Assembly: GCA_018061265.1 (NCBI GenBank)
Contig: JAGOUM010000011.1
Span: forward strand, 1-63,464
DNA length: 63,464 nt
Reading direction: 5' to 3'
Source: Rhodoferax sp.
GTDB lineage: Bacteria; Pseudomonadota; Gammaproteobacteria; Burkholderiales; Burkholderiaceae_C
This document shows, piece by piece, positions 2,713 to 59,685 of the stretch (positions are counted from its first letter, which is position 1; each line of letters opens with the position of its first letter). A program made the position numbers and the translations under genes. The notes beneath the pieces were generated by a model that was not told where the DNA came from, made no database searches, and worked only from the letters and a program-made list of their open reading frames with translations.

Positions 2713-3737
2713 GGGAGGCGGTCGGTAAACTGTTGCGCCAGCGCCAACACCCGTTCAAGCGCATCCGGTGCGTCACAGGCAACGACCTGCCGGTCGGCCA
2801 TGCCGCGCAGCCAGGTGATCTGGCGTTTGGCCAGCTGTCGGGTGGCAAAAATGCCTTTGTCGCGCAGCTCGGCCAAGGCAAACTCACCGTCCAGACTGGC
2901 CCAAGCCTGGCGATAGCCGACACAACGCATGGCGGGCAGGTCGGGGTGCAGGTCACCCCGCGCGCGCAAGGCCCGGACTTCGTCAAGCAGACCGGCGGCA
3001 AGCATGGCATCAAAACGTTGGGCAATGCGCTGATGTAACCAGCTGCGGTCGGCTGGTTCCAATGAAATCAGGCAGCTGGGTGCTGCCATTGATTCTGAGT
3101 AAAATTGGCCTTCAGAGCTTACTGTATAAGCTTTGTTAGCTATGCTATTTGTACTATGAAAGCTGGCAATAGTGCGTCCGGAGATCCGGTACACCTCCAG
3201 CGCGCGGGCAATTCGTTGTGAATCCAGCGGCGCCAGTCTTGCTGCCGTGACCGGGTCCAACTGTGCCAGTTCGGCATGTAGCGCAGGCCAGCCCTTGTGT
3301 GCTGCCTCTTGCTCGATGGCATGTCGTACCTGGGCATCGGCACCCGGCATGTCATCGAGCCCGTCGCGCAGTGCCTTGAAGTACAGCATGGTGCCGCCAA
3401 CCAAAAGCGGGAGCCTGCCTCGCGCGCTGATCTCTGCCATCAGGCGATGGGCATCGCGCACAAATTCCGCCGCACTGTAGGCATTGAGCGGATCACGGAT
3501 GTTGATCAGGTGGTGCGGCACCAACGCCAGCTCGGCGCTGGTGGGTTTGGCCGTGCCAATGTCCATGCCACGGTAAACCAGGGCCGAGTCCACGCTGATG
3601 ATCTCAACCGGGTACCGCCGCGCAATGGCCAGCGCCGCCGCCGTTTTGCCTGCGGCGGTGGGACCTGCCAGTGCCAGATAGGCGGTCGGCGCCGCTGCTC
3701 TGTCAAGGGTCGATGGTGGTGGTGGCAACGATGTCAT
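2709..3737 (-). CDS. miaA: tRNA dimethylallyltransferase
   Basis: MiaA transfers a dimethylallyl group to N6 of A37 in tRNAs reading UNN codons, the first step to ms2i6A. The P-loop GPTAAGKT is at residues 25-32, followed by [18 protein letters not shown] and later [13 protein letters not shown] chose the ATG at 3737 because the upstream 14 residues of the longer frame look non-coding. About 342 residues are predicted. An AT-rich stretch encodes residues of roughly 192-215 ([13 protein letters not shown] and following); compared with the usual family sequence between SGR and the PADR motif this is an insertion of about 15 residues, matching a dispersed repeat. The substrate, dimethylallyl diphosphate, is linked to ispA and dxs at 46-49 kb. 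Confidence 0.94.
3091..3160. repeat. Dispersed AT-rich repeat, copy inside miaA
   Basis: On the plus strand the copy reads from AAAATTGGCCTTCAGAGC through AAGCTTTGTTAGCTATGC. It shares the GGCCTNNAGNGCTTA start and the TTAGCTATNC end with the copies in recC, recB, amiC and elsewhere. It is read in frame in miaA and supplies a linker insertion. Confidence 0.75.
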
Positions 3738-3819
3738 ATTGAGGCGGTCTTGTGCCCCCGATGTTACGCAGGCGGCCAAAGGTGGCGCTGATTTCAGGGC
3801 ATCGGCGCGGTCCTGGCGC

Positions 3820-5064
3820 TCAAAGGCGTTTGACCCCGCTTGACGCCAATGTGGTGCCGGGCTCGCCGTGGCGCTGCACCAGTGTCCAGGCCGAGCCAGA
3901 AATCAGCAGGCTCCAGAAGCCAACGCCCAGGGTCAGCGGCAGCACCGTGCCGTCCATGTGGCTGCCCAGCCAGCCACCCATGGCAAAAGCGCACAGCATC
4001 ATGACAAAGCCGTTCATGGCCGAGGCGGCACCTGCCGCCTGAGGAAACGGGCCGACAGCACCACTCTGGCCACACGGCTGATGAATGCCATGGCCGATCA
4101 TGAACAGCATTTGCGGCAGCATGATGCTCCACACGCTTACCCAGCCCAGCAGGCTAAAAACGGCCATCAGTCCCCCGCCGCTAAGTGACAGCACACCCGC
4201 ACGCGCCACACTGCGTCGCACACCGAGGTGGGCGATCCAGTTGCGACAGACAAAGGTGCCGCCAATGTAGGCCACCGAGTTGACAAACATCACCAGCCCG
4301 TATTGGGTTTTGGACAGCCCCAGCACACCGGTAAAAACAAAGGAGGACGCTGCCAGAAAGGTGAACAAACCACCGTACGAGGCAGCCGAAAGGGCCGAGA
4401 ACGCCCAAAACGTGGGGTTTCCCAGTATGTGGCGCCAGGTCGCCAGCAGAGTCGCACCTTGCAGGGCATGCGGGTTTTTCTGTTGCACCGTCTCTTCGAA
4501 CCTGAGCGCCACCACCGCCAGCGCCACAGCGCCAAAAACCGCCACCGCCAGCAAGGCAAAACGCCAGTTCAGCAGGTCGGTCAGTAAACCACCCAATGGG
4601 GCACTCATGCAGGCGATCAGCCCAAGACCCGTGAGGCCCTTGCTCATCACCCGTGCGCCCTGGGTCGGCGAGTACAAATCCCGCACGATGGCGCGCGCGC
4701 ACATCACACCCGCACCCATTGCCACACCCTGCACCACGCGCCAGACGATCAGCCACCCCATGCTGGGTGCCAGGGTACTGGCCACGGACGCCAGCACGTA
4801 AGCGACCAGCCCGATGAGCAGGACCGGGCGGCGGCCATATTTGTCGGACAGTGGCCCCCACACCAGTTGTGACAGGCCAAAAGCCAGCAGCAGCGCGGTG
4901 AGTGTCAGCTGCGCCTGTGCCATGGGTGCCGCCAGCTCGGCCGTGAGCACCGGCAGTGCGGGCAAATACAGGTCGGTGGTGACGGGTTGCAGACCCAGCA
5001 GCAGGGACAGAAGCAGCACGATCACGCCGGGCTGCATTGAAACAGAAGTGGGTTGGGAGGGCAT
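3820..5064 (-). CDS. MFS multidrug exporter, Bcr/CflA family
   Basis: This 414-residue inner-membrane protein has the 12-helix pattern of drug:H+ antiporters. The N-terminus has [20 protein letters not shown], typical of Bcr/CflA proteins. The loop between helices 2 and 3 carries [16 protein letters not shown], the MFS motif A, and [23 protein letters not shown] follows as in this family. The substrate cannot be told; relatives export bicyclomycin, chloramphenicol or similar drugs. The gene is monocistronic and diverges from the small membrane-protein gene at 5164. Confidence 0.87.
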
Positions 5065-5163: not shown

Positions 5164-5535
5164 ATGGCAATTGGTTGGTTAACGGTTTTGAAAATGGTGC
5201 CTTGGGGCGATGTCATTGAAAACGCGCCCAAAGTGGCGATCGGTGCCAAAAAACTTTGGGACAAGGTGGGCAAAAAAACTGCACCTGTTGAGGTGCTGCC
5301 GACAGTGGCGACACCGGTGCCGACTTTGGCGCAGTTGCAGTCGCAGGTGGCGGCTTTGCAATTGGCCACGGCCGAGCTGCATCAGCAGATGCTCGATTCC
5401 ACCGAGCTGATCAAGACTCTGGCTGAGCAAAACACCCAGCTGGTCCGCCGGGTAGAGTCCAATCGCAAGCGTTTGTTGTGGCTGGCCTTCTTGCTGCTGT
5501 GTCTGGTGGTGGTGATTTTGCTTCGAAACGGATAG
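5164..5535 (+). CDS. Small coiled-coil protein with C-terminal membrane anchor, function unknown
   Basis: I chose the ATG at 5164 because it follows a GGGGAA ribosome site; the frame extends upstream but without coding character. The 123 residues begin with a short hydrophobic and amphipathic segment (MAIGWLTVLKMVPWGDVIE), then a Pro/Val linker, a predicted coiled coil (about residues 55-95, LAQLQSQVAALQ to LVRRVESNR), and a single helix (LLWLAFLLLCLVVVILL) at the C-terminus. This suggests a tail-anchored inner-membrane protein with its coiled coil in the cytoplasm. It sits 54 bases upstream of recC, with a dispersed repeat in the gap. I do not recognise a named family. Confidence 0.7.
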   Translation: MAIGWLTVLKMVPWGDVIENAPKVAIGAKKLWDKVGKKTAPVEVLPTVATPVPTLAQLQSQVAALQLATAELHQQMLDSTELIKTLAEQNTQLVRRVESNRKRLLWLAFLLLCLVVVILLRNG

Positions 5536-5588
5536 CTATCTATATCGCCCAGGTATGCGCCAGAGCCTGTTTTTACACTCAAATTTTT
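5531..5588. repeat. Dispersed AT-rich repeat between the small membrane-protein gene and recC
   Basis: The plus strand starts GATAGCTATCTATATCGC and continues AGGTATGCGCCAGAGCC then TTTTTAC. Reversed, this gives the same CTCTGGCGCATACC to GATAGCTATC order as the recB copy. It fills almost the whole 54-base gap before recC. Confidence 0.75.
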
Positions 5589-5589: not shown

Positions 5590-8500
5590 ATGATCAGCCC
5601 GATGGACGCGCGCCCGCCCAACGGTCTGATGGTGCTGCACGGCAACCGCCTTGAAGACCTGCGTGACCTGCTGGTCGACTACCTTCGTGTGCATCCGCTG
5701 GCACCGCTGCAGCCCGAGGTGATCCTGCTGCAAAGCAACGGCATGAAACACTGGCTGGAGCTGGCGCTGGCCGATGATGCCGCGCTGGGCATTTGTGGCG
5801 CCACCCGCATGGAGCTGCCCAGCAGCTACCTGTGGCAGATGTACCGGGCGGCGCTGGGCGCGCAGGCGGTGCCGGCCCACATGCCATTTGACAAGACTGC
5901 CCTGCTGTGGCGGTTGGTGCGTTTGCTGCCCACATTGTGTGAGACCGGCGCGGTGTACGCGCCCTTGAAGCGCTACCTCAGCGGTGACAACCAGGCGCGA
6001 AAACTTTACCAACTGGCACAACAGGTGGCCGACGTGCTGGATGGCTACCAAAGTTACCGCGCCGACTGGCTGGCCGACTGGGCGGTCGGGCAGGACCAGC
6101 TGTGCACCGAGCTGGGCGTGCCCGAACCCCTGGCACCAGAGCACAGCTGGCAGGCGCAACTGTGGCGTGATCTGCGCGCCGATGTGGGTACGGCGCTGGC
6201 CGACGCCTCGCGCGCCAGTGTCCATGAGCGGTTCATCGCGGCCATTGATCGGCTTGTTCACTCGCTTGATCAAGGCAATGCCCGGCCAGCCGGGCTGCCG
6301 CCGCGGCTGATTGTGTTTGGGATCTCCTCATTGTCGATGCAATCGGTGCAGGCGCTGGCGGCACTCGGGCAGGTTTGCCAGGTGCTGATGCTGGTGCAAA
6401 ACCCTTGTCGGTACTACTGGGGCGATATTGTGGAAGGCCATGCCCAGCTGCGACAGCAACTCCGGCGGCGACAGCCCGTTAAACCGAGCCCCGAGCGCAC
6501 CGGTGCCACCCACCCACTGCTGGCGTCATGGGGCAAGCAGGGGCGCGACTACCTGCATTTGCTCGACGGGTTCGACGCGCCCGAGTGTTACCGCAGGCAC
6601 TGGAGCCGGGTGGAGCTGTTTGTTGATCCGGCCACTCAGGCTGGCACCCAGCTGGCGCAATTGCAGTCGGACATCCTGAACCTGACGCCACCCCCGCCGT
6701 CACCGCAGGCACGGCCCAGCGATGGGTCACTCTGTTTTGTCACCTGTCACAACGCCCAGCGCGAGCTGGAGGTGCTGCACGACCGTCTGCTGGCCATGTT
6801 TGACGCCGATCTGGCCTTGCAGCCCCGCGAGGTCATGGTGATGGTGCCCGACATGCCTGCCTTTTTGCCGCACATTCATGCGGTGTTTGGCCGGTTTTCG
6901 CCGGGACAGTCGCGATTTATCCCGTATTCGGTGGCCGATACCAGTGTCCGCCAGAGCCCGCTGGTGCAGGCGCTGGAGCAATTGCTGCACCTGCCCCAGG
7001 CGCGTCTGACCTTGGCTGAGTGCCTGAGCCTGTTTGAAGTGGAGCCGGTACGCACGCGTTTTGGTTTGGACGAAGCCGCTGTGGCGCAAATCCAGGTCTG
7101 GCTGCAGGCCGCTGGGGTGCGCTGGGGGCTCGACGCAAACCATCGCCTGGCCTGGGGTCTGCCCGCCGGGGCGCAGGACCTGGCGCATAACACCTGGTCC
7201 TTTGGTCTGCGGCGACTGCTGCTGGGTTATGCCTTGGGCCCAGTCACCGATGCGGGTGGGGTCTTGGGTGGCGGCCTGTGGCAGGACACCCTGGCGCAGC
7301 CAGCCTTGAGTGGTCTGGACGCGCCGCTGGTTGGTGGTCTGCTGGACTGGCTCGATGCCACCGAGCAAAACCTGCAGGCGCTGCAGCCTGCGCAAACGCC
7401 GACTGAGTGGGGTCAGACCCTGCGAGCGCTGGTGGCACGTTTTTTTTCCAGCGCCGATGAGTCCGATGAACGTGCCATTGCCCGTTTGTTGCTGCCGCTC
7501 GATGAGTGGGAGCAAGCATGCGAGGCAGCGCAACTTGACACCCCGCTGCCGCTGGAGGTGGTGCGCGAACACTGGTTGTCACAACTCGCCGAGCCGGGGC
7601 TGCAGCAGCGGTTTTTTGGCGGTGGTGTGCAGTTTGGCACCTTGATGCCAATGCGCGCCATCCCGTTCAAGGTAATTGCCCTGCTCGGCATGAATGACGG
7701 TGCCTACCCGCGGGTGCAGGCGGCGCGTGACTTTGACCTGATGGCCAGCAGCTGGCGTGCCGGTGACCGTTCGCGTCGTGAGGACGACCGTTATCTGTTT
7801 CTCGAGGCGCTGCTGTCGGCCCGGCAAACGCTGTATGTGAGCTGGCAGGGTCACAGTGCGGCCGACAACAGCCCATGGCCACCCTCAGTGCTGGTGGCGC
7901 AGCTGCTCGACTGTGTCAACGCCTGCTGGAGCCCGCCACACCGGCCACAGGCGCAGCCGTTGCAGCCGTTCTCCAGTGCCTACTTTGAGGCGGGATCGGG
8001 GTTCTGCACCTATGCCAATGATTGGGAAAAAATTCGACCTCCAGCGCTTTCTGAGAAAGAGTTAGATGCTCTATATACAGAAGCAAAAACGATGCCGTCG
8101 GTGCTGACAAGTGTCTTGCCTCAGGCGCTCACACTCGATGATCTGCAGCGCCTGCTGCGCCAACCGGTCGAGGTGTTTTTTCGCCAGCGGCTGCAGGTTG
8201 AATTTGACAGTCTGGACGACCTGGAACTGGAAGACGAGCCTTTTGTGCTCCATCCGCTGCAACGCCATCAACTCGGTACCGCAATGTTGCAGGCCGGTGC
8301 CGATGCCCAGGCACTTGCAAGGCTAAACGCCGCCGGTGTGTTGCCGTTGGCCGGATTTGGCCGTCAAACCGCAGAGCGCTTGCTCGATCATGCACAGCTT
8401 GTCTGGCAAACCCAGGACCACTGGCTCAAGCAGTATCCACAGCAGATGGAGGCGCTGCCCATCGATCTATTGCTGGATGGTGGTGTCACGCTGCGCGGTG

Positions 8501-9063: not shown

Positions 9064-12000
9064 CCCCACTAGCGCTGGAACCTCTGAGCTTGCCCTTGAG
9101 TGGCTTGCAGCTGATCGAAGCGTCGGCCGGTACCGGCAAAACCTACACCCTGGCGGCGCTGTATGTGCGGCTGGTGCTGGGCCACCCACCGGACGGCGGG
9201 CAACTCGGGCCGGGGCTGTTTCCCCCGCAGATTCTGGTGATGACCTTCACCGAGGCGGCCACCGCCGAGTTGCGTGAACGCATCCGCGAGCGCTTGGCAC
9301 AGGCGGCGCTTTTTTTTCAGAGCACCCGCCCGGACCTGGCAGATGATTTTCTGTTGTCACTGGGTCGACAAATTGACAGCGGGCAATGGCCGCTGTGTGC
9401 TTGGCGGCTCGATATGGCAGCGCAGTGGATGGACGATGCGGCGATCTTCACCATCCACGGCTGGAGCAGCCGGATGCTCAAGACACATGCGTTTGACAGC
9501 GCCAGCCTGTTCACCCAGGACCGGGTTCCCGACAGTGATCGGTTAAAACTGATCGCCACCCAGGACTATTGGCGTCAATGGTTTTATGCGCTCGATGCGG
9601 CGTCCGTGGGCGCACTGAAGGCAATCGGGGAGACACCACAGGCCCTGCTGGAGAAGCTGCAGGCGCGCTGGAGATTGGCCGATCGGGCACCGCAGGCTGA
9701 ACCAGTCGTGCCCGAGACGCCCGACGTGCTGGTGGCCCGCTGGACCCTGTGGCAACAACAGCGCCAGCCTCTCGAGGACCGGGCCCGCCAGGGCTGGACC
9801 GCGGCGATGGCCCAGACCGTGGCGGATGCTGCAGCTGCCAGGCTAATCAAGGGGTACCGTGCGGATTGGCTGGACGGCTGGGTAAGCCAGATGGCCGAGT
9901 GGCAGCGGGGCGCTGATATCAAGGCGGAAACACTGGCGCGCTTCAGCCGAGCCACGCTGGTGAGCAAAGGCTGGGTGGCGGCAGCCAACTGGCCGGCGCT
10001 GGCGGATATTGAAGCGTTTTATTCCCATTTGCTGACCGAGCCCGACCTGACCAGGTCCCTGCTGGACCATGCAGCGCTGGCCGTGGGCCGTGCTTACCAG
10101 CGTGCCAAGGCGCAGGCGGCGCAGTTTGATTTTTCGGATCTGTTGCAGAACCTGTATTGGGCCTGCCATGCGCCAGATGGGCGCCTCGCAGCGGCCATTG
10201 CTGCGCAGTACCCGGTGGCTTTGGTCGACGAGTTTCAGGATACCGACCCGTGGCAGTTCGGGGCACTGTGCAGAATTTACAGCATTGATCACAATAAAGA
10301 CAATGGCTTGGGGCCAATTTCTCCAGAAGATGGGCGTCCCGACACGGTCCAGGCAGCAGCACCAGCAACGGATTCGGTGGCAACCGGCCTGATCATGATC
10401 GGAGATCCCAAACAGGCCATTTACAGTTTCCGGGGTGCCGATCTGGCGACTTACCTGCAGGCACGGGCGCTGGCCAGCGGCATTTACACCCTGCCAGGAA
10501 ACTACCGCTCGACGCCCGGTCTGGTGGCGGCTGTCAGCCGGGTATTTGCGCAGGCCGAGGCACCCTTTGGCAGCGTGCCATTTGCGCCGGTGCTGGCTTG
10601 CAACCACAAGGTACAGCCGCTGCAGATCAACGGGCAGGATCAGGTCGCCATGACGGTGTGGCACTTGCCGTTTGCACAAACCCCCACCAAGGCGGATTTT
10701 TTGCGGGCGATGTCAGCGGTGTTTGCCAGCCAGATGGTGGGCATCTTGCAAAGCGCCGCTGCCCGCCCCGGTGACATGGCAGTGCTGGTGCGTGACTGGC
10801 GGGAAGCAGCGGCCATACGTGCCGCTTTGTCCGAACGGGGTGTCGGCAGCGTGTACCTGTCTGAGCGCAACAGCGTGTATGCCAGCCAGCAGGCAAGTGA
10901 TTTGTGGCGCATATTGCGCGCCGTGTCGCAACCGGGCAACAACCGTTTGCTGCGCGCTGCACTGGCGACGCCCAGTTGGGGCCTGAATTGGGCGGTGCTG
11001 GATCAACTGCTGGCCGATGAGGCCGCCTGGGATGCACAGGTTGAGCAGTTCCTGCAGTGGCAGCGGGTCTGGCAGGTGCAGGGGCTTTTGCCCATGCTGT
11101 ACCGCCTGTTGCACGACACCGGTCTTGCCGGCCGTCTGTTGCAGCAAAGTCAGGCGGGTGAACGCGCGCTGACCAACCTGTTGCACCTTGGGGAGTTGTT
11201 GCAGGTGGCCAGCCAGGAACTGCAGGGTGAGGGTGCGCTGATCCGTTACCTTGAGGCGCAATTGCGCCACCCGCTGGCCAGTGGAGACGCGGCGCAGTTG
11301 CGGCTGGAAAGTGATGCCGAGCTGGTGCAGGTGGTGACTGTGCACAAATCCAAGGGGCTGGAGTACCCGCTGGTGTTTCTGCCCTTTGTCTCGCAGTTCC
11401 GGGCTGAAGACAAGGACTCGGGGCGCCCGGATGATGAACGGCTGGCCGAAGACATCCGCCTTTTGTATGTCGCGCTCACCCGTGCCAGACAGGCCGTCTG
11501 GCTGGGGTTGGCACCGGTGCATGGTGACATGGATGGCCAGAATCCGCAGCCAAGGAGTGCTGTCTCGCGTCTGTTGGGGCGCCGTGAGGTGGGTGACCTG
11601 TGGCCACGCCTGCAGAGCTGGGTCTGCTCCGATGTGGCGGTGTTGACCGCGCCGCAACCCGCTGGCACCCCTTACCGTCCCACTGCAGGCAACCAATTCG
11701 ACCATCAGTCTGCCTGTCAGGCACAACGGCAACTGGCACAGCATTGGTGGAGCGCAAGTTTTAGCGCGCTCACACGGGGTCTGTCACACCAGGCGGCTGC
11801 CGGTCTAGCCAGTCTGCAGGACGAAAAGCTGGGTGACGCGCAGTGGGATGCTGCCAGGGTGGATGAGGCGGCCGCGGCGGGTCCCCAGAGCGACCCACTT
11901 CCTGATGCGGACTTGCTCAGCGTCGAGCCCGGCTACAACCTCTTTCCGGCGGGCAGCCAGGCTGGAACACTGTTGCATGATCTGCTGGAGTGGCAGGCGG

Positions 12001-12737
12001 TGCATGGCTGGCCTGCCGCTCATTCCAATGGGGAATCACAAAGTGATGCCGCAGGCGACACCAGCAGTCCCTCGACAGAGCTTGCGGCAGCATGGACAGA
12101 GTTGCTGGCCCGGCTTGGGAACAATCTGAACCTGACGCCCGAGCACAGCGAACTGCTGCAGCGCTGGATTTCTGAGGTTATTGGCTTAAATATGCCTCTA
12201 GCGCATACTGGTAAAAGGTTTATAGCTATTCAATTAAAGGCAATCAAGGCGGCAGACCTGTGGCCTGAAATGGCGTTTACCCTGCCGGTCAAGGCACTCG
12301 CCAGTCAGCGGCTTGACCGGTTGATGCATCAGCACCTTTGGCCCGGAAAGCCCCGCGCCGCGTTGCCACAACAGGCTATCCAGGGCATGTTGACAGGTTT
12401 TATGGACCTGGTGTTTTGCCACCAGGGGCGCTATTTTGTGCTTGACTACAAGTCCAACCGGCTGCCGGCTTACTCTGCCACCCAGATGCAGCATGCCATG
12501 CTGACGCATCGTTACGACCTGCAGGCTGCGCTGTATGTGCTGGCGCTGCACCGCCTGCTGCGCGCGCGACTGGGCTCGTCTTATGACTACGACATCCACG
12601 TGGGTGGTGCCCTGTACCTGTTTTTGCGCGGTGTTGACCAACCTGGTGGTGGGCTGTTGCAGATACAGCCACCGCGCGTGCTGATCCAGGCCATGGACGC
12701 TGCTTGTGCGGCAACACATGAGCAGGAGGCCGCGTGA
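9060..12737 (+). CDS. recB: Exodeoxyribonuclease V subunit beta (RecB helicase-nuclease)
   Basis: RecB is the 3'-5' helicase and the nuclease of RecBCD. The chosen ATG at 9060 overlaps the recC stop and puts Walker A ASAGTGKT at residues 21-28. Other superfamily 1 motifs follow: MTFTEAATAELRERI, VDEFQDTDPWQF, LIMIGDPKQAIYSFRGAD, VVTVHKSKGLEYPLVFLP and LYVALTRARQAVWLG. The C-terminal nuclease core is visible as GFMDLVF and LDYKSNR (Asp/Lys near residue 1130). There are 1225 residues. Two stretches look inserted: about residues 408-444 between FGALCRIY and the GDPKQAIY motif, and about 1040-1061 at a repeat copy in the linker before the nuclease domain. Confidence 0.95.
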   Translation: MTPLALEPLSLPLSGLQLIEASAGTGKTYTLAALYVRLVLGHPPDGGQLGPGLFPPQILVMTFTEAATAELRERIRERLAQAALFFQSTRPDLADDFLLSLGRQIDSGQWPLCAWRLDMAAQWMDDAAIFTIHGWSSRMLKTHAFDSASLFTQDRVPDSDRLKLIATQDYWRQWFYALDAASVGALKAIGETPQALLEKLQARWRLADRAPQAEPVVPETPDVLVARWTLWQQQRQPLEDRARQGWTAAMAQTVADAAAARLIKGYRADWLDGWVSQMAEWQRGADIKAETLARFSRATLVSKGWVAAANWPALADIEAFYSHLLTEPDLTRSLLDHAALAVGRAYQRAKAQAAQFDFSDLLQNLYWACHAPDGRLAAAIAAQYPVALVDEFQDTDPWQFGALCRIYSIDHNKDNGLGPISPEDGRPDTVQAAAPATDSVATGLIMIGDPKQAIYSFRGADLATYLQARALASGIYTLPGNYRSTPGLVAAVSRVFAQAEAPFGSVPFAPVLACNHKVQPLQINGQDQVAMTVWHLPFAQTPTKADFLRAMSAVFASQMVGILQSAAARPGDMAVLVRDWREAAAIRAALSERGVGSVYLSERNSVYASQQASDLWRILRAVSQPGNNRLLRAALATPSWGLNWAVLDQLLADEAAWDAQVEQFLQWQRVWQVQGLLPMLYRLLHDTGLAGRLLQQSQAGERALTNLLHLGELLQVASQELQGEGALIRYLEAQLRHPLASGDAAQLRLESDAELVQVVTVHKSKGLEYPLVFLPFVSQFRAEDKDSGRPDDERLAEDIRLLYVALTRARQAVWLGLAPVHGDMDGQNPQPRSAVSRLLGRREVGDLWPRLQSWVCSDVAVLTAPQPAGTPYRPTAGNQFDHQSACQAQRQLAQHWWSASFSALTRGLSHQAAAGLASLQDEKLGDAQWDAARVDEAAAAGPQSDPLPDADLLSVEPGYNLFPAGSQAGTLLHDLLEWQAVHGWPAAHSNGESQSDAAGDTSSPSTELAAAWTELLARLGNNLNLTPEHSELLQRWISEVIGLNMPLAHTGKRFIAIQLKAIKAADLWPEMAFTLPVKALASQRLDRLMHQHLWPGKPRAALPQQAIQGMLTGFMDLVFCHQGRYFVLDYKSNRLPAYSATQMQHAMLTHRYDLQAALYVLALHRLLRARLGSSYDYDIHVGGALYLFLRGVDQPGGGLLQIQPPRVLIQAMDAACAATHEQEAA
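10272..10325. repeat. Possible degenerate copy of the dispersed repeat inside recB
   Basis: An AT-rich patch (ATTGATCACAATAAAG then GGCTTGGGGCCAATTT) ends like the other copies in their reverse orientation. It falls in an insertion of about 37 residues that ordinary RecB proteins lack at this point. The match is weak over its first half. Confidence 0.35.
12178..12240. repeat. Dispersed AT-rich repeat, second copy inside recB
   Basis: This is one of the clearest copies: GCCTCTAGCGCATACTGGTA, then TTTATAGCTATTCAATTAAA. It is nearly the same as the tupA copy at the start and the EamA copy at the end. It is read in frame as a linker (VIGLNMPLAHTGKRF and on). Confidence 0.8.
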
Positions 12738-20026: not shown

Positions 20027-20078
20027 GGTGTTCGGTGAGTTTGGAGTCAATGAATCAAACGCTGGTGCAGCAACGATC

Positions 20079-20117: not shown

Positions 20118-20145
20118 CACTTTTGCGGGTCAAAGTTAAACTGAC

Positions 20146-20576: not shown

Positions 20577-21722
20577 TCAACCGCGGTAATAATTGGTCGG
20601 CACAAAAGGCATGGCCACCACCTGCATCGGCACTGCCTTGCCGCGCACCATGGCGTTCACCGTGGTGCCCAGTGCCGCCAACTCGGGCGGCAGATAAGCC
20701 ATGGCGATGGGTTGGTCGATGGTGGGGCCAAGCAAACCGCTTGTGACTTCACCAATACGCTGGCCGCCTGCCTCCTGCAACTCGGTGTGCTCTCGCACCG
20801 GAACCCGTGCCAGCGCCATCAATCCAACACGTTTTCTGGCTGTAGCGCTTGTTCCGCCTGGGAGTTGCGCTAGTATTTTGGTTGCACCCGGGAAACCACC
20901 TGCACGCGCCCCTCCGGCCCGGCGCACCTTTTGAATGGCCCACGCCAAGCCGGCCTCGACCGGTGTGGTGGTGGTGTCGATGTCGTTGCCGTACAGAGGC
21001 AGACCGGCCTCGAGCCGCAGCGAGTTGCGTGCACCCAGACCGATGGGTTTGACTTCGGGTTGCGCCAGCAGTGCGTTGGCCAGTGCCAGCGCGTCACTGG
21101 CATGCACGGAGATCTCGAATCCGTCTTCCCCGGTATAGCCACTGCGGGTCAAAAACACCTCAATGGCCTGCGCTCCGGCCTGCACCTTGAAGTAATCCCC
21201 GGTCATGAATACCAGCTTTTCAACACCCGGCGCAAGGCGGGACAAGGCCGCCACCGCCTGCGGGCCCTGCAGGGCCAACAGGGCACGCTCGGGCATCGGG
21301 ATCACATCGCAGCGTTTGCCAATCCTTGCCTGGATATGGGCAATGTCACCGGCCTTGCAGGCACCATTGACGATCACAAAAAGGTCTGGCCCGCGGTTGA
21401 CAAACATCAGGTCGTCAATGATGCCTCCTTCATCGTTGAGCAGCAGTCCGTAACGCTGTTTGCCGACAGGCAGATCGATCACATCCACCGGCAGCAGTGA
21501 CTCCAGTGCTGCCGCCGCGTCGGGCCCGACCAGGCGCAGCTGGCCCATGTGTGAAACGTCAAACAGCCCGGCGGCCGTGCGGGTGTGTTTGTGTTCGGCC
21601 ATCAACCCCGCAGGGTATTGCACCGGCATCGAATAGCCGGCAAATGGCACCATCCGTGCGCCAAGCGCAATATGCAGGTCATTGAGGGGAACGTTCAACA
21701 GCGGTACGGCGGACTCGGACAT
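20577..21722 (-). CDS. gcvT: Aminomethyltransferase, T-protein
   Basis: GcvT releases ammonia from the aminomethyl-lipoyl group on GcvH and makes 5,10-methylene-tetrahydrofolate. Visible landmarks are MVPFAGYSMPVQY, LFDVSHMGQLRL, TRSGYTGEDGFEI and LGARNSLRLEAGLPLYGND. I set the start at the ATG at 21722, preceded by AGGAG; a longer open frame runs back into the glycine riboswitch and is not protein. The product has 381 residues. Near residues 281-297 a sequence resembling the dispersed repeat is translated. The gene leads the riboswitch-controlled gcv operon. Confidence 0.95.
   Translation of the reverse strand: MSESAVPLLNVPLNDLHIALGARMVPFAGYSMPVQYPAGLMAEHKHTRTAAGLFDVSHMGQLRLVGPDAAAALESLLPVDVIDLPVGKQRYGLLLNDEGGIIDDLMFVNRGPDLFVIVNGACKAGDIAHIQARIGKRCDVIPMPERALLALQGPQAVAALSRLAPGVEKLVFMTGDYFKVQAGAQAIEVFLTRSGYTGEDGFEISVHASDALALANALLAQPEVKPIGLGARNSLRLEAGLPLYGNDIDTTTTPVEAGLAWAIQKVRRAGGARAGGFPGATKILAQLPGGTSATARKRVGLMALARVPVREHTELQEAGGQRIGEVTSGLLGPTIDQPIAMAYLPPELAALGTTVNAMVRGKAVPMQVVAMPFVPTNYYRG
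20831..20881. repeat. Possible degenerate copy of the dispersed repeat inside gcvT
   Basis: GTTTTCTGGCTGTAGCGCTT and GCGCTAGTATTTTGG resemble the two arms of the repeat. The protein is hardly longer than normal here, so this may be chance or an old, eroded copy. Confidence 0.3.
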
Positions 21723-21790
21723 GGCGTCTCTCCTGGGGCAGACAAAATAAACCATGGCGAACCGGTTGGTGTCGCCATGGGCTGCCCCCG

Positions 21791-34122: not shown

Positions 34123-34148
34123 AAAGATGAGCTAGAAGTCAAGTTCAG
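34106..34148. repeat. Possible degenerate repeat copy at the dedA 3' end
   Basis: GTCTATATCTTCTTAAAAAG and GAGCTAGAAGTCAAG match the reverse orientation of the consensus (GACTTCTAGC to ATATAGAC). If real, it provides the last codons and stop of the dedA gene. Confidence 0.4.
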
Positions 34149-34181
34149 ACAAGCGCGAAAGGCATAATTTCCTTGAAAAAC

Positions 34182-44614: not shown

Positions 44615-44630
44615 GTTCAGGATTACTTAA

Positions 44631-44659
44631 TAAATATGGCTCTATCGCAATACAGTAAA
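44631..44659 (-). promoter_or_regulatory. Promoter of the EamA-sseA pair
   Basis: In the AT-rich gap, on the minus strand, TTTACT (44659-44654) and TATTTA (44636-44631) are 17 bases apart, with the ATG at 44614 just downstream, giving a short leader. Confidence 0.45.
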
Positions 44660-44690
44660 CACTTTTCTGCTACAGATAATATCGTATCAA

Positions 44691-45824
44691 TTACTCCGCC
44701 ATCTGCTTTTGGTACCAGGCGTGAAAGTGCTGCATGCCATCTTCCATGGGGCTTTGGTACGGTCCAATCTGGTTCTCTCCACGCGCAAACAGGGCTTTGC
44801 GTCCGGCATCCATTCGTTCGCCAATTTCATCGTCTTCGATACAGGTTTCCATATAGGCCGCCTGTTGTGATTCGACAAACTCGCGCTCAAACGCCTGAAT
44901 CTCTTCCGGATAGTAAAACTCGACCATATTGAGTGTTTTGTCCACACCCATCGGGTGCAGGGTCGACACGGTCAACACATGCGGATACCACTCGATCATG
45001 ATGTGTGGGTAGTAGGTGAGCCAGACCGCTCCACGTTCTGGCATCTGGCCGTGGCGGTACTTCAGTAGTGCCTGGTGCCAGCGCCGGTAGACCGCGGACC
45101 CGGGCCGGCCAAACGCTTTCGATACACCGACGGTTTGCACGGAATAGTGCTGGCCAAACTCCCACTTCAGGTCATCACAGCTCACGAAATGGCCCAGCCC
45201 CGGGTGAAACGGGGCCACATGGTAGTCCTCAAGATAGACCTCGATGAAGGTCTTCCAGTTGTAGTTGCATTGGTGCAACTCGACCTTGTCGAGCACGTAA
45301 CCCGAGAAGTCCAATGTGGTGCGTTCATCCAGTCCTGCAAGGTTCTGCGCCACGGGGCCAGCGGTGGCACCCTCTGCGGCCTCGAACAACAGGCCGTTCC
45401 AGCTCTGCAGCGGATAGTTGCGCAGGTTGAGACAAGGGTCCTGAGGAAAGTGCGGCGCGCCGATCAGCGTGCCAGCTGTCTGTGCACCGTTGGTCGCGTA
45501 GGTCCAACGGTGGATCGGGCAGACAATATTGCCCCCTGTCGTGTCCAGCGACCCTCGTCCTTTCAGCATCATTGCCTGGCGGTGTCGACAGACATTGGAC
45601 ACCAGTTCAATCCCCCGCTGGGTGTGCACCAACACACGACCACCCAGTTCCTGTGCCAGGACATGATAGTCCCCCAGATTGGGAACACTTTGGGCGTGGC
45701 CCACATACCGTGGTCCTCGCTCGAACAGGATTTTTAACTCGCGCTGGTACAGCGCTGGATCAAAGTAACTTGAAACTGGTAGTTGGCCTGCGGCCTGCTG
45801 CAGTTGAAGACTTAAATCAGACAT
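44691..45824 (-). CDS. Rieske non-haem iron oxygenase, alpha subunit
   Basis: The 377 residues have a Rieske centre (C79, H81, C102, H105 in NVCRHRQAM and VCPIHRWTYA) and a catalytic iron site in NWKTFIEVYLEDYHVAPFH (H202, H207, nearby Asp). It hydroxylates an aromatic or quaternary-amine-type substrate using a separate reductase, which is not in the window. The gene stands alone, with an unusual hairpin-rich leader. Substrate unknown. Confidence 0.88.
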   Translation of the reverse strand: MSDLSLQLQQAAGQLPVSSYFDPALYQRELKILFERGPRYVGHAQSVPNLGDYHVLAQELGGRVLVHTQRGIELVSNVCRHRQAMMLKGRGSLDTTGGNIVCPIHRWTYATNGAQTAGTLIGAPHFPQDPCLNLRNYPLQSWNGLLFEAAEGATAGPVAQNLAGLDERTTLDFSGYVLDKVELHQCNYNWKTFIEVYLEDYHVAPFHPGLGHFVSCDDLKWEFGQHYSVQTVGVSKAFGRPGSAVYRRWHQALLKYRHGQMPERGAVWLTYYPHIMIEWYPHVLTVSTLHPMGVDKTLNMVEFYYPEEIQAFEREFVESQQAAYMETCIEDDEIGERMDAGRKALFARGENQIGPYQSPMEDGMQHFHAWYQKQMAE

Positions 45825-47301: not shown

Positions 47302-47317
47302 GCCAACATTGAAGTTG

Positions 47318-47381
47318 GGGTATTTTTTTGCCTCCAGCCCAGTGTTGATAGGCTCTGATAGCTATAAAAAGTAAATATTAT
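47318..47381. repeat. Dispersed AT-rich repeat between ispA and dxs
   Basis: The plus strand reads TTTTTTTGCCTCCAGCCC then TAGGCTCTGATAGCTATAAA. It fills nearly the whole gap and ends at the dxs start codon, so the dxs ribosome-binding region lies in the repeat. Confidence 0.75.
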
Positions 47382-49272
47382 GCTGATGAACATTCCGTAT
47401 CCTCTGCTGCAAGGTATTCATGGCCCGGCAGATTTGCGGCGACTTGCGCGCAACCAGCTCGAGGCCCTTTCGACCGAGTTGAGGGCCTACCTGCTCGACA
47501 GTGTGGCCAAAACCGGTGGCCACCTGAGCTCCAACCTGGGCACCGTGGAACTCACGGTGGCGCTCCACTATGTGTTCAATACCCCGTATGACCGTGTGGT
47601 GTGGGACGTGGGCCACCAGACCTACCCACACAAGATCCTGACAGGGCGGCGCGAACGCATGAGCAGCTTGCGCCAGTTGGGCGGGCTCAGCGGTTTCCCG
47701 CAACGGGGTGAAAGCGAGTTTGACGCTTTTGGTACAGCCCACTCCAGCACGTCCATCTCGGCGGCTCTGGGAATGGCGATGGCGTCCAAACTCAAGGGCG
47801 AAGAGCGCCAGGCGATCGCCGTGATCGGTGATGGCGCCATGACGGCGGGCATGGCGTTTGAAGCACTCAACAACGCCGGGGTGGCCGACTGCAACCTGCT
47901 GGTCATCCTGAACGACAACGACATGTCGATCAGCCCGCCTGTGGGGGCGCTTAACCGGTACCTTGCCAAACTGCTGAGTGGCCAGTTTTACACCACCGCC
48001 AAAAGTGCAGGCAAGTCCGTGCTCAAAGGTGCACCGCCTCTTTTTGAGCTGGCCAAGCGCTTTGAAGAGTCGGCCATGGGCATCGTCAAACCGATCACGC
48101 TGTTTGAAAAGTTCGGCTTTAACTATGTGGGGCCAATCGATGGCCATGATGTTGAAACCCTGGTCAGCGTGCTGGAGAATATTCGTCATCTCAAGGGGCC
48201 GCAGTTCTTACATGTGGTGACCAAAAAAGGGCAGGGCTACAAGTTGGCCGAGGTGGATCCGGTGGCCTACCATGGCCCGGGCAAGTTTGATCCGGCTGTG
48301 GGTTTGCAGAAATCCAGTGCCCAGGCCCTGCCCACATTCACCCAGGTGTTTGGTGACTGGCTGTGTGATATGGGTGCAGCGGATGATCGGCTGGTTGGTA
48401 TTACCCCGGCGATGCGTGAAGGCTCGGGTATGGTCGAATTCGAGAAGCGTTTTCCCAAGCGCTTCTTTGATGTTGGCATTGCTGAACAACATGCCGTCAC
48501 ATTTGCCGCAGGCCTGGCCTGTGAGGGCATGAAGCCGGTGGTGGCCATTTATTCAACCTTTTTGCAGCGTGCCTACGACCAGTTGATTCACGACGTGGCG
48601 ATACAGAACTTGCCGGTGGTGTTTGCACTGGACCGCGCCGGTCTGGTGGGTGCCGATGGGGCTACTCACGCCGGCGCCTACGACATCGCCTACCTGCGCT
48701 GCATCCCGAACATCAGCGTGGCCTGCCCGGCTGACGAGAACGAGTGTCGCCAATTGCTGTGTACTGCCTTCGCGCAGAACAGTCCGGTGGCGGTACGTTA
48801 TCCGCGGGGTGTCGGTGCGGGTGTGCCGGTGCAAAGTACGCTGGACGCCTTGCCATTTGGCAAAGGTGAGATCCGTCGTACCGGCAACCGTCTGGCCATT
48901 CTGGTTTTTGGTACTCTGCTGCAGCAGGCGCTGCTGGCGGCGCAGGCGCTTGACGCCACCGTGGTCAATATGCGCTGGGCCAAACCGTTGGACGAGTCCC
49001 TGCTGCTGCAAGTGGCCAGGGATCATTCGGTTCTGGTCACCCTTGAAGAGGGTGCCGTGATGGGCGGGGCAGGCAGTGCCGTGCTTGAGTCCCTGGGCCG
49101 GGGCGGCTGGTCCAGGCCAGTGCTTCAGTTGGGTCTGCGGGACGAATTTGTCGAACATGGCGACCCGGCCAAGCTGCTGTCTTTGCAAGGGCTTGACGCC
49201 AATGGCATAGAAGCCAGCGTCCGGGTCTACCTGGCGACGCCAGAAGTTGTCAAAAATCTGCACAACTATTGA
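47380..49272 (+). CDS. dxs: 1-deoxy-D-xylulose-5-phosphate synthase
   Basis: Dxs joins pyruvate and glyceraldehyde 3-phosphate in the first step of the MEP pathway, using thiamine diphosphate. The 630 residues show [21 protein letters not shown], the TPP motif [18 protein letters not shown], and [16 protein letters not shown] with the catalytic Glu. The start may be at 47380 or 47386. There is no strong ribosome site, since the leader is a repeat copy. Together with ispA it supplies isoprenoid precursors. Confidence 0.96.
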
Positions 49273-55900: not shown

Positions 55901-56763
55901 AAACCATGTCAACGATCGGTAATTTCAAGTCTTTTTTACCTCTAGCGCATACCCGGTATGTGTTTGGTGCTATTGGTGTTGCATTAATTTGTGGTGCCTC
56001 TCTTGGCGTCAGTGCGCAGGTGATCACCGTGGCATCAACCACTTCGACGGAGCAGTCGGGTCTGTTTTCTTATTTGTTGCCCGAATTCAAGAAAGCCAGC
56101 GGCATCGATGTCAAGGTGGTTGCGGTGGGCACGGGCCAAGCCATTGACATGGGACGCCGGGGCGACGCAGACGTGATGCTGGTGCACGACAAAGTGGCCG
56201 AGGAAAAAGTGGTGGCCGAGGGGTTTGCCGTCAAACGTTTTGACGTCATGTACAACGACTTTGTGCTGATCGGCCCCAAGAGCGATCCGGCGAAGACCAA
56301 GGGGAATGACATCGTTGATGCCCTGAAAAAGCTTGCCGCAGGCAACACCGAGTTCATTTCGCGCGGCGACAAGAGCGGAACCCACGCGGCTGAGCTGCGT
56401 TACTGGAAGATGGCAGACCTGACCGACAAGATGGGCAGTGGTTATAAATCCTGCGGCTGTGGCATGGGGCCCGCGCTGAACATGGCTGCCAGCTCGGGAG
56501 CGTATGTGCTGGCTGATCGTGGCACCTGGCTCAATTTTAAAAACCGGGCCGAGCTGGCGATTCTGGTGGAAGGGGATCAACGCCTGTTCAACCAGTACGG
56601 TGTGATGTTGGTCAACCCGGCCAAACACGCCCATGTCAAGGCCGTTGGAGGCCAGAAGTTTGTTGACTGGCTGATCTCCGCGCCGGGTCAAACGGTGATT
56701 GCGAACTACAAAATTGGTGGTGAGTCGCTGTTTTTTCCGAATGCCGGCGCTGCTGGCAATTAA
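55897..56763 (+). CDS. tupA: Tungstate-binding periplasmic protein
   Basis: TupA binds tungstate in the periplasm; the N-terminal mature part has VASTTSTEQSGLFSYLLPEF, close to the TTTS-type oxyanion motif of TupA. SRGDKSGTHAAELRYWK and GSGYKSCGCGMGPALNMAA are also family segments. The start may be the GTG at 55897 or the ATG at 55906. The 288 residues include a long signal region, residues 10-31 of which come from a dispersed-repeat copy; cleavage probably follows GASLGVSAQ. Confidence 0.88.
   Translation: MKTMSTIGNFKSFLPLAHTRYVFGAIGVALICGASLGVSAQVITVASTTSTEQSGLFSYLLPEFKKASGIDVKVVAVGTGQAIDMGRRGDADVMLVHDKVAEEKVVAEGFAVKRFDVMYNDFVLIGPKSDPAKTKGNDIVDALKKLAAGNTEFISRGDKSGTHAAELRYWKMADLTDKMGSGYKSCGCGMGPALNMAASSGAYVLADRGTWLNFKNRAELAILVEGDQRLFNQYGVMLVNPAKHAHVKAVGGQKFVDWLISAPGQTVIANYKIGGESLFFPNAGAAGN
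55930..55990. repeat. Dispersed AT-rich repeat in the tupA signal region
   Basis: TTTTTTACCTCTAGCGCATA, then GTTTGGTGCTATTGGTGTTG. The first half matches the recB copy closely. It codes for the part just before and within the hydrophobic core of the signal peptide. Confidence 0.7.
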
Positions 56764-58230: not shown

Positions 58231-58245
58231 GGCGTTGGTGACCGC

Positions 58246-59685
58246 TTAGAGGCTGCGGCTGCGCGCAAGTGGTGGATTTTTGGCAAAGTAGCGCTCGATG
58301 CCGCGCATCAGCGCATCAGCCAGCTGCTCCTGATAGGCATCACTGTTGAGTTTGATCTCTTCCTCGGGGTTGCTGATAAACGCGGCCTCCACCAGCACGC
58401 TGGGGATGTCCGGTGCCTTGAGCACGGCAAACGATGCCTGCTCCACCCGTGGTTTGTGTAATTTGCCGACGCGGCGGATCTCGCTGAGCATGTTGCCACC
58501 GAGTTGCAGGCTGTCCTTGATCTGTGCGGTGGTGCTCATATCGAGCAGGGCGCGCTTGACCTGGGCATCACGCACTTTGACGTTGACGCCGCCAATCAGG
58601 TCGGCCTTGTTCTCCTTGTCGGCCATCCAGCGTGCTGCTGCACTGGATGCGCCGCCCTGACTCAGCGCGAACACACTGGCACCTTGCGGATTCGGGGTGA
58701 AAAAAGCGTCTGCATGCAGGCTGATGAACAGGTCCGCCTTGACTTTGCGCGCTTTGGCGACCCGTGTATGCAAGGGGACAAAGTAGTCTGCGTCTCGGGT
58801 CAGGAAGGCACGCATGGCGTTGCCGTTGCTGGACGTGGCGTTGATACGCTCACGCAAGCGGTGCGCCAAACGCAGCACCACATCTTTTTCATAGGTGCCC
58901 GCCGGGCCAATGGCACCAGGATCTTCGCCACCATGGCCCGGATCGAGTGCAATGATGATCAGCCGGTCGGTGGCGCTGTCGGTCGCTGCTACGGGGGGAG
59001 CGGGGCTTGCACTTACTATGTCTTTTTGTCCTCCAGCGCTTTTCGGTAAATGGTTTTTAGCTATGTTTTCAGAAGTATTGAGATCACCACCTCCTGGAGT
59101 CGACGGCGAACCAGGCGGCTTGGTGCTGTTGGGTCCGGCTGTTTTTGCGATCAGCTCACCCAATGGGTCATGGTCATTGGCAGCCTTGGCTGGCCCCGCC
59201 AGACCCGGTTGGTCTGGGGCAGTTGCGGCGTCTTTCAGACGTTCGGCAATCAAGCCTTCCAGCGGGTCCTGGACTTGTGTCGGGTAGAGGTCAAACACCA
59301 GCCGATGGCGGTACGCGGCAACCGGCGTCAGGCTGAACACCTGGGGTGCCACTGGCTGTTTCAGGTCGACCACCAGGCGCACCACACCTGGTGCAAACTG
59401 CCCCACCCGAATGCCGTTGATCGTTGGGTCACTTGGGCCAACCTTGGCAACCAGTTCTTTCAGCGCGGCATTGAGTTCGATGCCAATCACATCCACCGCC
59501 AGTCGGGGTGGACTCGGCACAAAACTCTGGGTAAAACTCAGCGACGCGTCCGATTCAATGGTCACGCGGGAGTAGTCCACTGCTGGCCACACCCGCACCG
59601 CCAGTATGGTGGCACCCCAGGCGAGTTCCTGGCCACCCAGCAGCAGCACCAGGGTTCCACCTTGCAGCAAGGTGCGCCGTTTCAT
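58246..59685 (-). CDS. amiC: N-acetylmuramoyl-L-alanine amidase
   Basis: The 479-residue protein splits daughter-cell murein in the periplasm. It has an N-terminal signal sequence (LLQGGTLVLLLGGQELAWG), an AMIN domain for septal targeting (about 30-130), and an Amidase_3 domain from about 240: ALDPGHGGEDPGAIGPAGTYEKD with zinc His and Glu, FISLHADAF, and VLVEAAFISNPEEE near the end. Residues about 201-222 in the linker come from a repeat copy (LNTSENIAKNHLPKSAGGQK). Confidence 0.92.
   Translation of the reverse strand: MKRRTLLQGGTLVLLLGGQELAWGATILAVRVWPAVDYSRVTIESDASLSFTQSFVPSPPRLAVDVIGIELNAALKELVAKVGPSDPTINGIRVGQFAPGVVRLVVDLKQPVAPQVFSLTPVAAYRHRLVFDLYPTQVQDPLEGLIAERLKDAATAPDQPGLAGPAKAANDHDPLGELIAKTAGPNSTKPPGSPSTPGGGDLNTSENIAKNHLPKSAGGQKDIVSASPAPPVAATDSATDRLIIIALDPGHGGEDPGAIGPAGTYEKDVVLRLAHRLRERINATSSNGNAMRAFLTRDADYFVPLHTRVAKARKVKADLFISLHADAFFTPNPQGASVFALSQGGASSAAARWMADKENKADLIGGVNVKVRDAQVKRALLDMSTTAQIKDSLQLGGNMLSEIRRVGKLHKPRVEQASFAVLKAPDIPSVLVEAAFISNPEEEIKLNSDAYQEQLADALMRGIERYFAKNPPLARSRSL
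59019..59082. repeat. Dispersed AT-rich repeat, copy inside amiC
   Basis: The plus strand reads CTTTTTGTCCTCCAGCGCTT, then CGGTAAATGGTTTTTAGCTA. It is among the best copies and is translated in the amiC linker between AMIN and amidase domains. Confidence 0.8.

Follow-up and report, generated by a model that had tools for sequence, protein, structure and literature searches.

Our analysis of a 63,464-nt stretch of a Rhodoferax sp. genome (the window; contig JAGOUM010000011.1) showed that copies of one ungapped motif of about 70 nt recur there, with 9 of 13 falling within genes: miaA, recC, recB (twice), eamA, mutL, tupA, amiC and a GCV_T protein gene. The copy in miaA (2709-3779, minus strand) occupies 3089..3161 on the minus strand (57.6 bits), a placement, codon for codon, that other genera share. 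The recC gene (5590-9063, plus strand) contains a copy at 8018..8090 (minus strand, 54.0 bits), at a site common to the congeners L044 and L045, and a further copy lies directly upstream of its ORF start at 5590 (5514..5586, plus strand, 42.1 bits). Two copies fall in recB (9006-12737, plus strand): a weak one at 10261..10333 (plus strand, 26.5 bits), in a region where congeners also have weak copies and the length of the stretch varies, and one at 12175..12247 (minus strand, 60.0 bits), which lies within the Pfam nuclease-domain match at a site occupied by the motif in 5 of the 11 congeneric RecBs compared. A weak copy at 20819..20891 (minus strand, 27.4 bits) is situated between two domains of the GCV_T protein gene (20577-21896, minus strand), and the EamA transporter gene (24830-25774, plus strand) carries one at 25491..25563 (minus strand, 48.1 bits). 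The mutL copy (31145..31217, plus strand, 36.8 bits; gene at 30421-32346, minus strand) separates the N-terminal from the C-terminal domain. Near the N-terminus of a solute-binding protein gene (55897-56763, plus strand), earlier called tupA, a copy at 55919..55991 (minus strand, 51.4 bits) falls in what, judged by eye, is the signal-peptide region, and occupies the same place in the congeners L281, L282, L284, L286 and L288 and in L292 from another genus. In the amidase gene amiC (58246-59685, minus strand), the linker region holds a copy at 59010..59082 (minus strand, 51.5 bits), likewise in place in the congeners L243, L244 and L246. Outside genes, copies lie between a VTT-domain gene (33463-34122) and a ROK gene (34182-35423), where the copy overlaps the end of the former (34110..34182, plus strand, 37.7 bits); in the spacer of an EamA gene and a Rieske oxygenase gene (44619..44691, minus strand, 42.1 bits); in that of a polyprenyl synthetase gene and dxs (47311..47383, minus strand, 43.6 bits); and, weakly, in a spacer at 62783..62855 (minus strand, 23.3 bits). 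The in-gene share of the window is high for the family, since other stretches examined have 25-44% of their copies inside genes.

The first-pass annotation had proposed a dispersed repeat family at 12 places, and this family is real: all 12 match the motif, and the copies at 44619-44691 and 62783-62855 are additions to its list. The weakest window copy scored 23.3 bits, as against a best of 14.5 across 40 Markov-1 shuffled windows. A sequence-only profile built from 10 copies (R1), run on the window with filters off, found six strong copies at 29-47 bits (3099, 8030, 12186, 25501, 55929 and 59020), one at 47326 (E = 0.026) and weak matches at 5518 (E 0.2), 34127 (E 1.7) and 31154 (E 9.3); the previously named 10272 and 20831 were absent from its matches. 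A 73-column matrix gave 10 window matches of at least 15 bits and none in one Markov-1 control, and after refinement on the own genome it recovered all 12 of the named places together with 44619-44691. The scores of the weak copies are inflated, because the refined matrix giving the final bit scores takes in all window matches and the first one was trained with 5 strong window copies among its set. The GC content of the eight best window matches was 0.33-0.47. Across the window's own genome R1 gave at least 149 matches at E <= 0.06, an underestimate because scoring covered no more than 150 of the 1549 candidates from the first look.

The motif extends over about 70 bp and joins an ATAGCT-type half to a GCGCTNGAG-type half at fixed spacing; the gap between the half-sites was 7 nt in 119 of 119 canonical copies under a pattern that allowed 4-10 nt. 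Runs of A/T flank both sides some two helical turns away from the centre, and one turn farther out weaker runs follow. These flanking runs flip between A and T and avoid TpA steps (12 observed vs 144 expected in the right run of the sampled genome G111). TpA was below expectation in both runs of all five sets and ApT was reduced too, so that the runs are mostly all-A or all-T. Left and right runs were not associated in G111 (p = 0.20) and weakly associated in Acidovorax-type loci (p = 0.019), and linkage within the motif was slightly above that of shuffles (G111, 26 of 1891 pairs vs about 4; Acidovorax-type loci, 47 pairs vs about 8). Dialects of the motif differ by genus. Over positions selected for at least 85% conservation, perfect copies outnumbered singly mismatched ones (G111, 132:81; G054, 25:18; G138, 22:8; own genome, 62:11), while over the best contiguous 9-mer (77:108, 22:18, 6:12 and 12:22, respectively) they did so only in G054. 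Hairpin pairing in the own genome was 0.532 vs 0.531 in shuffled copies, with 4 of 74 fully paired; in Acidovorax-type loci, most of them chosen by a perfect core, 143 of 212 copies were fully paired, slightly above shuffled.

The motif occurred about once per 6-7 kb in the own genome and once per 3-6 kb in three further genera that were sampled. Over-representation was strong, with reversed controls yielding 1 match in the own genome and 0 in the other four sets, but at one per 3.3-6.2 kb the density stays below the near one copy per kb expected of an uptake signal. In G111, 275 copies were found in 1.2 Mb at 18 bits, with 0 in the Markov and reversed controls; their strands were balanced (141 vs 134) and their spacing was even, with a variance/mean of 0.42 in 20-kb bins and 0.25 in 40-kb bins, an evenness that no more than 2 of 2000 random placements reached. 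Even spacing was not seen in 20-kb tiles of the own genome (variance/mean 0.89, n = 19), and G054, with 0 to 10 copies per tile, seems uneven. Three 20-kb tiles without any copy have an accessory appearance (three cases only): the start of G138, with patatin/iHKD and DUF932 genes; 20-40 kb of G000 C258, with secretion and LapD-like genes; and 40-60 kb of G054, with repeat-rich giant genes. The largest motif gaps in G111 coincided with masked sequence and with two genes of rpoB/rpoC size.

A link with Comamonadaceae, suggested at the first reading, was supported by a species-genome pattern search, in which 70 of 80 among the matches listed carry names of Comamonadaceae genera (Acidovorax, Simplicispira, Giesbergeria, Comamonas, Rhodoferax, Diaphorobacter and others) and the other ten broader labels. 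The motif was present in 21 of 100 genera of the family and undetected in 79. Canonical Acidovorax-type copies lie mostly in spacers, with 5 of 86 in genes, a count that excludes 33 copies close to the ends of loci; with looser copies included, 16 of 138 were inside genes. Divergent spacers contained 9 copies and convergent ones 32, and copies lay near gene ends at a short distance from stop codons. Orientation relative to genes was balanced both in tandem spacers (38 same, 43 opposite) and inside genes (7 same, 9 opposite). The bias in reading phase among copies inside genes (55 of 86) is what stop codons would lead one to expect. ComEC was present in all 20 genomes tested and is not diagnostic for an uptake signal, because 6 motif-free genomes among them have it equally.

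Comparison of homologues gave a mixed picture, clear at EamA and mostly clear at MiaA, which on balance suggests that unit insertion was not the rule. The EamA site spans 24 codons in all nine homologues, five with the motif and four without it. In MiaA, orthologues from other genera have the motif at identical codon positions, and their length mostly equals that of motif-less ones; the first-pass annotation had named such an outcome as one that would refute its reading. Among 72 site windows compared with a motif-less homologue, net length change was 0 in 21, +1 in 5 and near-unit (+23 to +28 codons) in 9, six of these being one RecB site against one genome, two AmiC and one a G054 gene; the remaining changes lay between those values or were negative. 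Flanking windows showed no net change in 98 of 143, so that motif sites change length more often than their flanks. The recB of G022 is without 69 nt that contain the motif, which looks like a deletion because the linker is retained in the motif-less RecBs of other congeners. Of three spacer copies tracked in Acidovorax and relatives, one was absent in 2 of 8 loci, along with about 107 nt. Pairwise identity among 276 G111 copies (part of the genome) averaged 0.53 and reached at most 0.83. The GC content at 4-fold sites of motif-bearing genes in five gene sets was 0.12-0.70 within the motif, values that rest on 6-19 codons each, vs 0.73-0.97 outside it; in the same region of motif-less homologues it was 0.75-1.00 for miaA, 0.69-0.93 for eamA and 0.43-0.84 for recB, with one motif-less recB (L048) AT-rich there too. 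Identity at synonymous third bases within the motif (365 of 593) hardly exceeded that outside it (11422 of 19487) and by itself is not evidence. A target-site duplication scan of 118 canonical copies revealed no consistent offset. When loci were searched all against all for empty sites, each of the 422 pairs obtained carried the motif, a result that proves little because most loci were chosen for having it.

Collectively, our findings make it probable that the repeats are a maintained, non-mobile, double-stranded recognition motif of part of the Comamonadaceae. An ungapped family, clade restriction, genus dialects, overlay of codons without length change at several sites and long retention at orthologous sites support this, as do the absence of recent copies, the absence of strand bias and the even spacing in G111. 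Copies may mainly originate and last through base changes and small indels in DNA that is already present and tolerates them (spacers, the ends of genes and linkers of proteins), and some protein would read the motif duplex. By analogy, we tentatively suggest, with confidence somewhat short of even, that the motif is an uptake-signal-like sequence for natural transformation. The candidate reader would then be the DNA-uptake machinery, and motif-bearing fragments would be preferentially taken up and recombined, so that the motif would be spread and preserved by drive, as others have argued for Pasteurellaceae and Neisseriaceae uptake sequences. Points against the uptake reading are a density below that of known uptake sequences, the much greater length of the motif, spacing that was significantly even in G111 alone, ComEC in motif-free genomes as well, and the length changes at motif sites.

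Several of these features would serve a binding site of a chromosome-organising or other DNA-binding protein just as well, a site acting in nucleoid architecture, segregation, replication or repair and kept by selection with no uptake link; we regard this as only slightly less probable than the uptake reading. The fixed half-site spacing, the two-sided A/T runs with TpA avoidance, the lack of strand bias and even spacing in G111, and the low number of divergent relative to convergent spacers fit such a site equally well. The uneven spacing in the own genome speaks against it, and a classical protein site would not usually be 70 bp long and occur hundreds of times in a genome. An old mobile palindrome of the REP/REPIN or MITE type, spread by copying long ago and now decaying at fixed sites, is unlikely. 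The mostly intergenic and often hairpin-like canonical Acidovorax-type copies and the few near-unit-length changes agree with it, and it looked good from Pfam counts, with a RAYT-type gene in 9 of 9 motif-rich vs 1 of 4 motif-free genomes. Its standing was lowered by a protein search, which found RAYT in 95 of 100 genera, in motif-free ones (75 of 79) as often as in motif-bearing ones (20 of 21), and by the flanks of RAYT loci: in 3 of 16 loci a motif copy lay no more than 1.5 kb from RAYT, about what its density predicts, and a different repeat (exact GGGGTCAGA) lay within that distance of 12 of 15 distinct RAYT genes. The lack of near-identical copies in G111, the low linkage, the codon overlay, the A/T flips and an own-genome pairing equal to shuffled also argue against former mobility.

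Selfish DNA that inserts peptides into proteins, like the Rickettsia palindromic elements, was the comparison drawn by the first-pass annotation. Such elements likewise occur as in-frame copies in unrelated proteins, several copies here lie in inter-domain linkers, and the 69 nt missing from the G022 recB and the 9 near-unit changes in 72 would fit insertion. We nevertheless consider this reading very improbable, given the unchanged length at EamA and mostly at MiaA, the homologous residues in their motif-less orthologues, the deletion-like appearance of the G022 recB and the absence of a maintained hairpin in the own genome. Compared by description, the present motif differs in showing no insertion at several sites and no own-genome hairpin. 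What stands of the earlier reading is one dispersed, AT-rich, frame-keeping family typical of Comamonadaceae. Peptide insertion as a rule does not, since the motif overlays existing codons at several sites, with unit-length changes at some; nor does the palindromic element, with no hairpin kept in the own genome and no recent copies in G111. An RNA-level element (terminator, attenuator or small RNA) would suit the position near gene ends with stop codons close by, and is hardly credible in view of the lack of orientation preference, in spacers and in genes, and of a conserved hairpin in the own genome.

How uptake sequences spread through genomes is debated, and a motif that has dialects, keeps its codon positions from one genus to another and went undetected in 79 of the 100 genera of its family would provide an independent case to test drive against selection. 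If the uptake reading is true, the odd peptides in the protein linkers of this clade would reflect a DNA-level constraint; if a chromosome protein reads the motif instead, the clade would have an undescribed genome-organising code. As of 2006, uptake sequences were recognised in two bacterial families only, according to PMC1626085. The motif could perhaps, on odds we would put slightly below even, represent a third, independently evolved class of self-recognition uptake signal in part of the Comamonadaceae: two-sided and about 70 bp long, with phased A/T runs, genus dialects and copies numbering in the hundreds in each genome, which transformation drive would have placed in spacers and in housekeeping genes and, within the window, in the repair genes recB, recC and mutL too.

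Known systems resemble the motif to different degrees. The BRE of Bordetella (75-91 bp, 69% GC, often tandem) are also small repeats, counted in Comamonadaceae too and with some copies inside coding sequence (PMC3110155); we rejected this identity on the AT-richness of the motif, a distinction based on the published description of BRE. REP/REPIN sequences with RAYT transposases, the subject of PMC3116915, PMC3686654 and PMC8049555, are similarly dispersed and mostly intergenic, and Acidovorax-type copies are partly palindromic, whereas the present motif lacks recent copies in G111, an own-genome hairpin and RAYT association. Parallels are found in the Pasteurellaceae uptake sequences, which likewise combine a core with A/T tracts spaced by about one turn, are not insertions by a gap test similar to the one that gave a mixed outcome here, are spaced more regularly than random, as the motif is in G111, prefer non-coding DNA with many coding copies, and are stable over the long term with clade-specific variants (PMC1626085). 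They differ in having a 9-bp core and two tracts, against about 70 bp with tracts on both sides here, and in density, roughly one per kb for known uptake sequences (PMC1626085) against a several times sparser one per 3-7 kb for the motif. Beyond the partial pairs of a 2017 survey (PMC5217627), our literature search found no account of the motif, though one may exist under another name. That survey reported GCTTAT(N)5AAGCG in Acidovorax ebreus TPSY (114 copies near gene ends, 107 intergenic, 44 convergent, 4 divergent) and ATAGCT(N)22CAAAAG in Polaromonas naphthalenivorans CJ2, labelled in the portion compared as "potential novel motifs" with no function, full extent, mutual relation or insertion test (PMC5217627). 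The Acidovorax ebreus pair equals the central part of the present motif letter for letter with equal spacing, and the Polaromonas pair, identical in its first half and two letters off in its second, is probably a dialect of it. Relative to these partial pairs (PMC5217627), what is added here is the full extent of the motif, a probable link between both pairs and an insertion test.

The dispersed repeats proved to be copies of one ungapped, AT-rich DNA motif of about 70 nt, carrying an ATAGCT-type half-core, a second half-core, and A/T runs on both sides. An exact-core pattern permitting 4-10 nt between the half-cores found a canonical copy in at least 119 stretches (80 of them listed) from a collection of species genomes, with a gap of 7 nt in 119/119. 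The aligned canonical copies formed a unit of about 70 nt with sharp edges, from positions -18 to +51 relative to the core, and together with copies from the window and its genome they aligned without gaps across 73 columns (60 rows). A matrix built on this alignment and refined for each set identified 14 copies in the window, including all 12 places named by the first-pass annotation; 74 in 462 kb of the window's genome (60 in the 399 kb outside the window); and, in three compared genomes, 276 in 1.2 Mb (G111), 61 in 200 kb (G054), and 34 in 200 kb (G138). Reversed-sequence controls at the identical threshold gave 1 match in the window's genome and 0 in the other sets. The genome-wide scan that the annotation had proposed, performed with a profile from 10 copies and 150 of 1549 candidates scored, returned at least 149 matches. 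Its description of AT-rich islands in GC-rich DNA was also borne out.

The proposal that the repeat inserts peptides, in the manner of Rickettsia palindromic elements, was not supported as a general rule. The EamA site comprised 24 codons in 9/9 homologues, of which five carried the motif and four lacked it, and the residues of the two groups were clearly homologous. Among the MiaA homologues compared (14 at ≥15 bits and 14 at <10 bits), the motif or its remnants occupied identical codons in orthologues from many genera, whereas motif-less orthologues had GC-rich codons and roughly equal length at the site. In the RecB comparison, recB of one genome (G022; locus L046) lacked 69 nt, including the motif, relative to a near relative (L043), and retention of the linker in other motif-less RecBs suggests a deletion in G022. 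Over window 5590-12737, recB was patchy, with strong matches in 14/40 relatives. A wider length-change test was modeled on a published gap test of Haemophilus sequences (described in the available text of PMC1626085). From 881 motif matches across all loci, in which overlapping loci were counted repeatedly, 234 in-gene candidates were obtained, 72 of which could be compared with a motif-less homologue sharing ≥45% identity beyond the site. These comparisons are non-independent since many represent orthologues at the same few sites (MiaA, RecB, RecC, AmiC, TupA, and EamA). The net change in length was zero for 21 of them and +1 for 5; 9/72 fell at +23 to +28, near one unit, and the remainder were intermediate or negative. 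Flanking control windows showed zero net change in 98/143, so motif sites vary more in length than their surroundings. These counts indicate that unit insertion is not the rule, although some gains or losses of an entire unit exist.

Copies were retained over long periods within one family. Each of the six strong in-gene window sites was shared with one or more genomes of the same or another genus, and three copies traced by eye in Acidovorax and relatives (20 genomes searched) were present in 19/19 loci with both flanks (two being one genome under two handles), 8/8, and 6/8 loci. Across five gene sets, 4-fold degenerate positions have kept an AT-rich composition within the motif, against GC-rich ones elsewhere in each gene. 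Of the 80 listed canonical stretches, 70 carry genus names that we take to belong to Comamonadaceae, and the other ten have broader labels; judging by the names of the motif-bearing genomes, the window's genome probably belongs to this family as well. At a strict threshold, and with scoring limited to 49 candidates in each genome, the motif occurred in at least 21/100 genera of the family, 12 of them with at least 30 matches; among 120 genomes across the order, it matched two, both from this family. A single 73-nt query, which would miss diverged copies, matched 0/50,697 phage records and three plasmid records, and the exact core was present in three viral contigs.

In the G111 distribution set (275 copies in 1.2 Mb), the strands were balanced (141 versus 134), and 69 copies lay within coding sequence as assigned by simple custom gene calls. 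Variance/mean of counts was 0.42, 0.25, 0.39, and 0.15 in 20-, 40-, 50-, and 100-kb bins, an evenness matched by at most 12/2000 random placements; it was not seen in tiles of the window's genome (0.89) or in G054. Motif-bearing spacers of Acidovorax-type loci were convergent in 32 cases and divergent in 9, in line with the 44 and 4 given for A. ebreus in PMC5217627. One motif-free stretch of lower GC (L383; G138:C1:1-20000), with patatin/iHKD and DUF932 genes, is perhaps a defense-type island.

RAYT, the transposase of REP/REPIN systems, was judged unlikely to mobilize the motif. Pfam matches occurred in 9/9 motif-rich and 1/4 motif-free genomes, with one in each motif-rich genome except G054, which had 20 (PF01797), several with equal scores and apparently a multiplied IS200/IS605-type element. 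A protein search with the RAYT of the window's genome detected it in 95/100 genera, equally often with the motif (20/21) and without (75/79); the motif lay within 1.5 kb in 3/16 loci of motif-bearing genomes, about the expectation from motif density. A repeat of its own seems to accompany this transposase, namely a distinct palindrome with GGGGTCAGA, found by hand count within 1.5 kb of 12/15 distinct RAYT genes; the 9-mers number 6 in 399 kb of the window's genome. At locus L323, such palindromes flank the RAYT match, at distances of about 40 nt on the near side and 100 nt beyond it, and look like this repeat; an inverted repeat at window 20070-20126, near the end of ORF 17069-20092, has similar GGGTCAGAGCCCAATTC-type arms. 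Presence of the RAYT-type gene (L227:1462-2157) in 95/100 genera, mostly as one match, suggests long vertical retention.

Nor did the copies resemble recent duplicates. Among the 276 in G111, pairwise identity reached at most 83% (mean, 53%); removal of similar rows affected none there, 2/74 in the window's genome, and 18/212 in the Acidovorax-type set, these 18 probably being mostly orthologues. Linkage among distant positions was slightly above shuffles. Flanking runs were mainly all-A or all-T, with TpA depleted in G111 (right run, 12 observed versus 144 expected; left run, 69 versus 198), a tendency shared by all five sets; left and right runs were independent in G111 (p = 0.20) and weakly associated in Acidovorax-type loci (p = 0.019). 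If one ancestral sequence were decaying, A would not be expected to give way to T within the runs with G and C kept out of them. The inner arms form a hairpin in Acidovorax-type copies; in the window's genome, their pairing was no better than shuffled.

Collectively, the constant spacing of the half-cores, the shape-type flanks, the balance between strands, and the vertical retention suggest that the duplex is recognized by a candidate protein, which would read the motif in double-stranded form. By analogy, this reader may be the DNA-uptake machinery of natural transformation, making the motif an uptake signal, a tentative reading to which we give somewhat less than an even chance; a binding site for a chromosome protein would account for duplex recognition as well and is, in our judgment, a little less probable. 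The uptake channel ComEC was found in 20/20 genomes tested but is not diagnostic. In G042, which has at least 13 strict motif matches, the ComEC domain lies in three pieces (G042:C1:1836740-1837544), through sequencing error or gene decay. In the available text of PMC5217627, the A. ebreus form and a P. naphthalenivorans motif, probably a form of the present one, appear among potential novel motifs without function; no further account was found in the literature searched. Among duplex-recognition systems, uptake signal sequences offer the closest resemblance. As described in the available text of PMC1626085, they have A/T runs about one turn apart, originate by substitution, are regularly spaced, prefer spacers but include many coding copies, and show long stability and clade variants. 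The motif likewise has A/T runs about a turn apart, clade variants, and long stability, and favors spacers yet has many coding copies; its spacing is regular in G111 but not in tiles of the window's genome or in G054, and a substitution origin would fit the 0 or +1 length change in 26/72 comparisons, against near-unit change in 9/72. Consensus strength gave a mixed picture: at positions selected for ≥85% conservation, perfect copies exceeded those with one mismatch (G111, 132 versus 81; G054, 25 versus 18; G138, 22 versus 8; window's genome, 62 versus 11), but across the best contiguous 9-mer this held in G054 alone (22 versus 18; G111, 77 versus 108; G138, 6 versus 12; window's genome, 12 versus 22). 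Unlike uptake signal sequences, the motif is sparser and longer.
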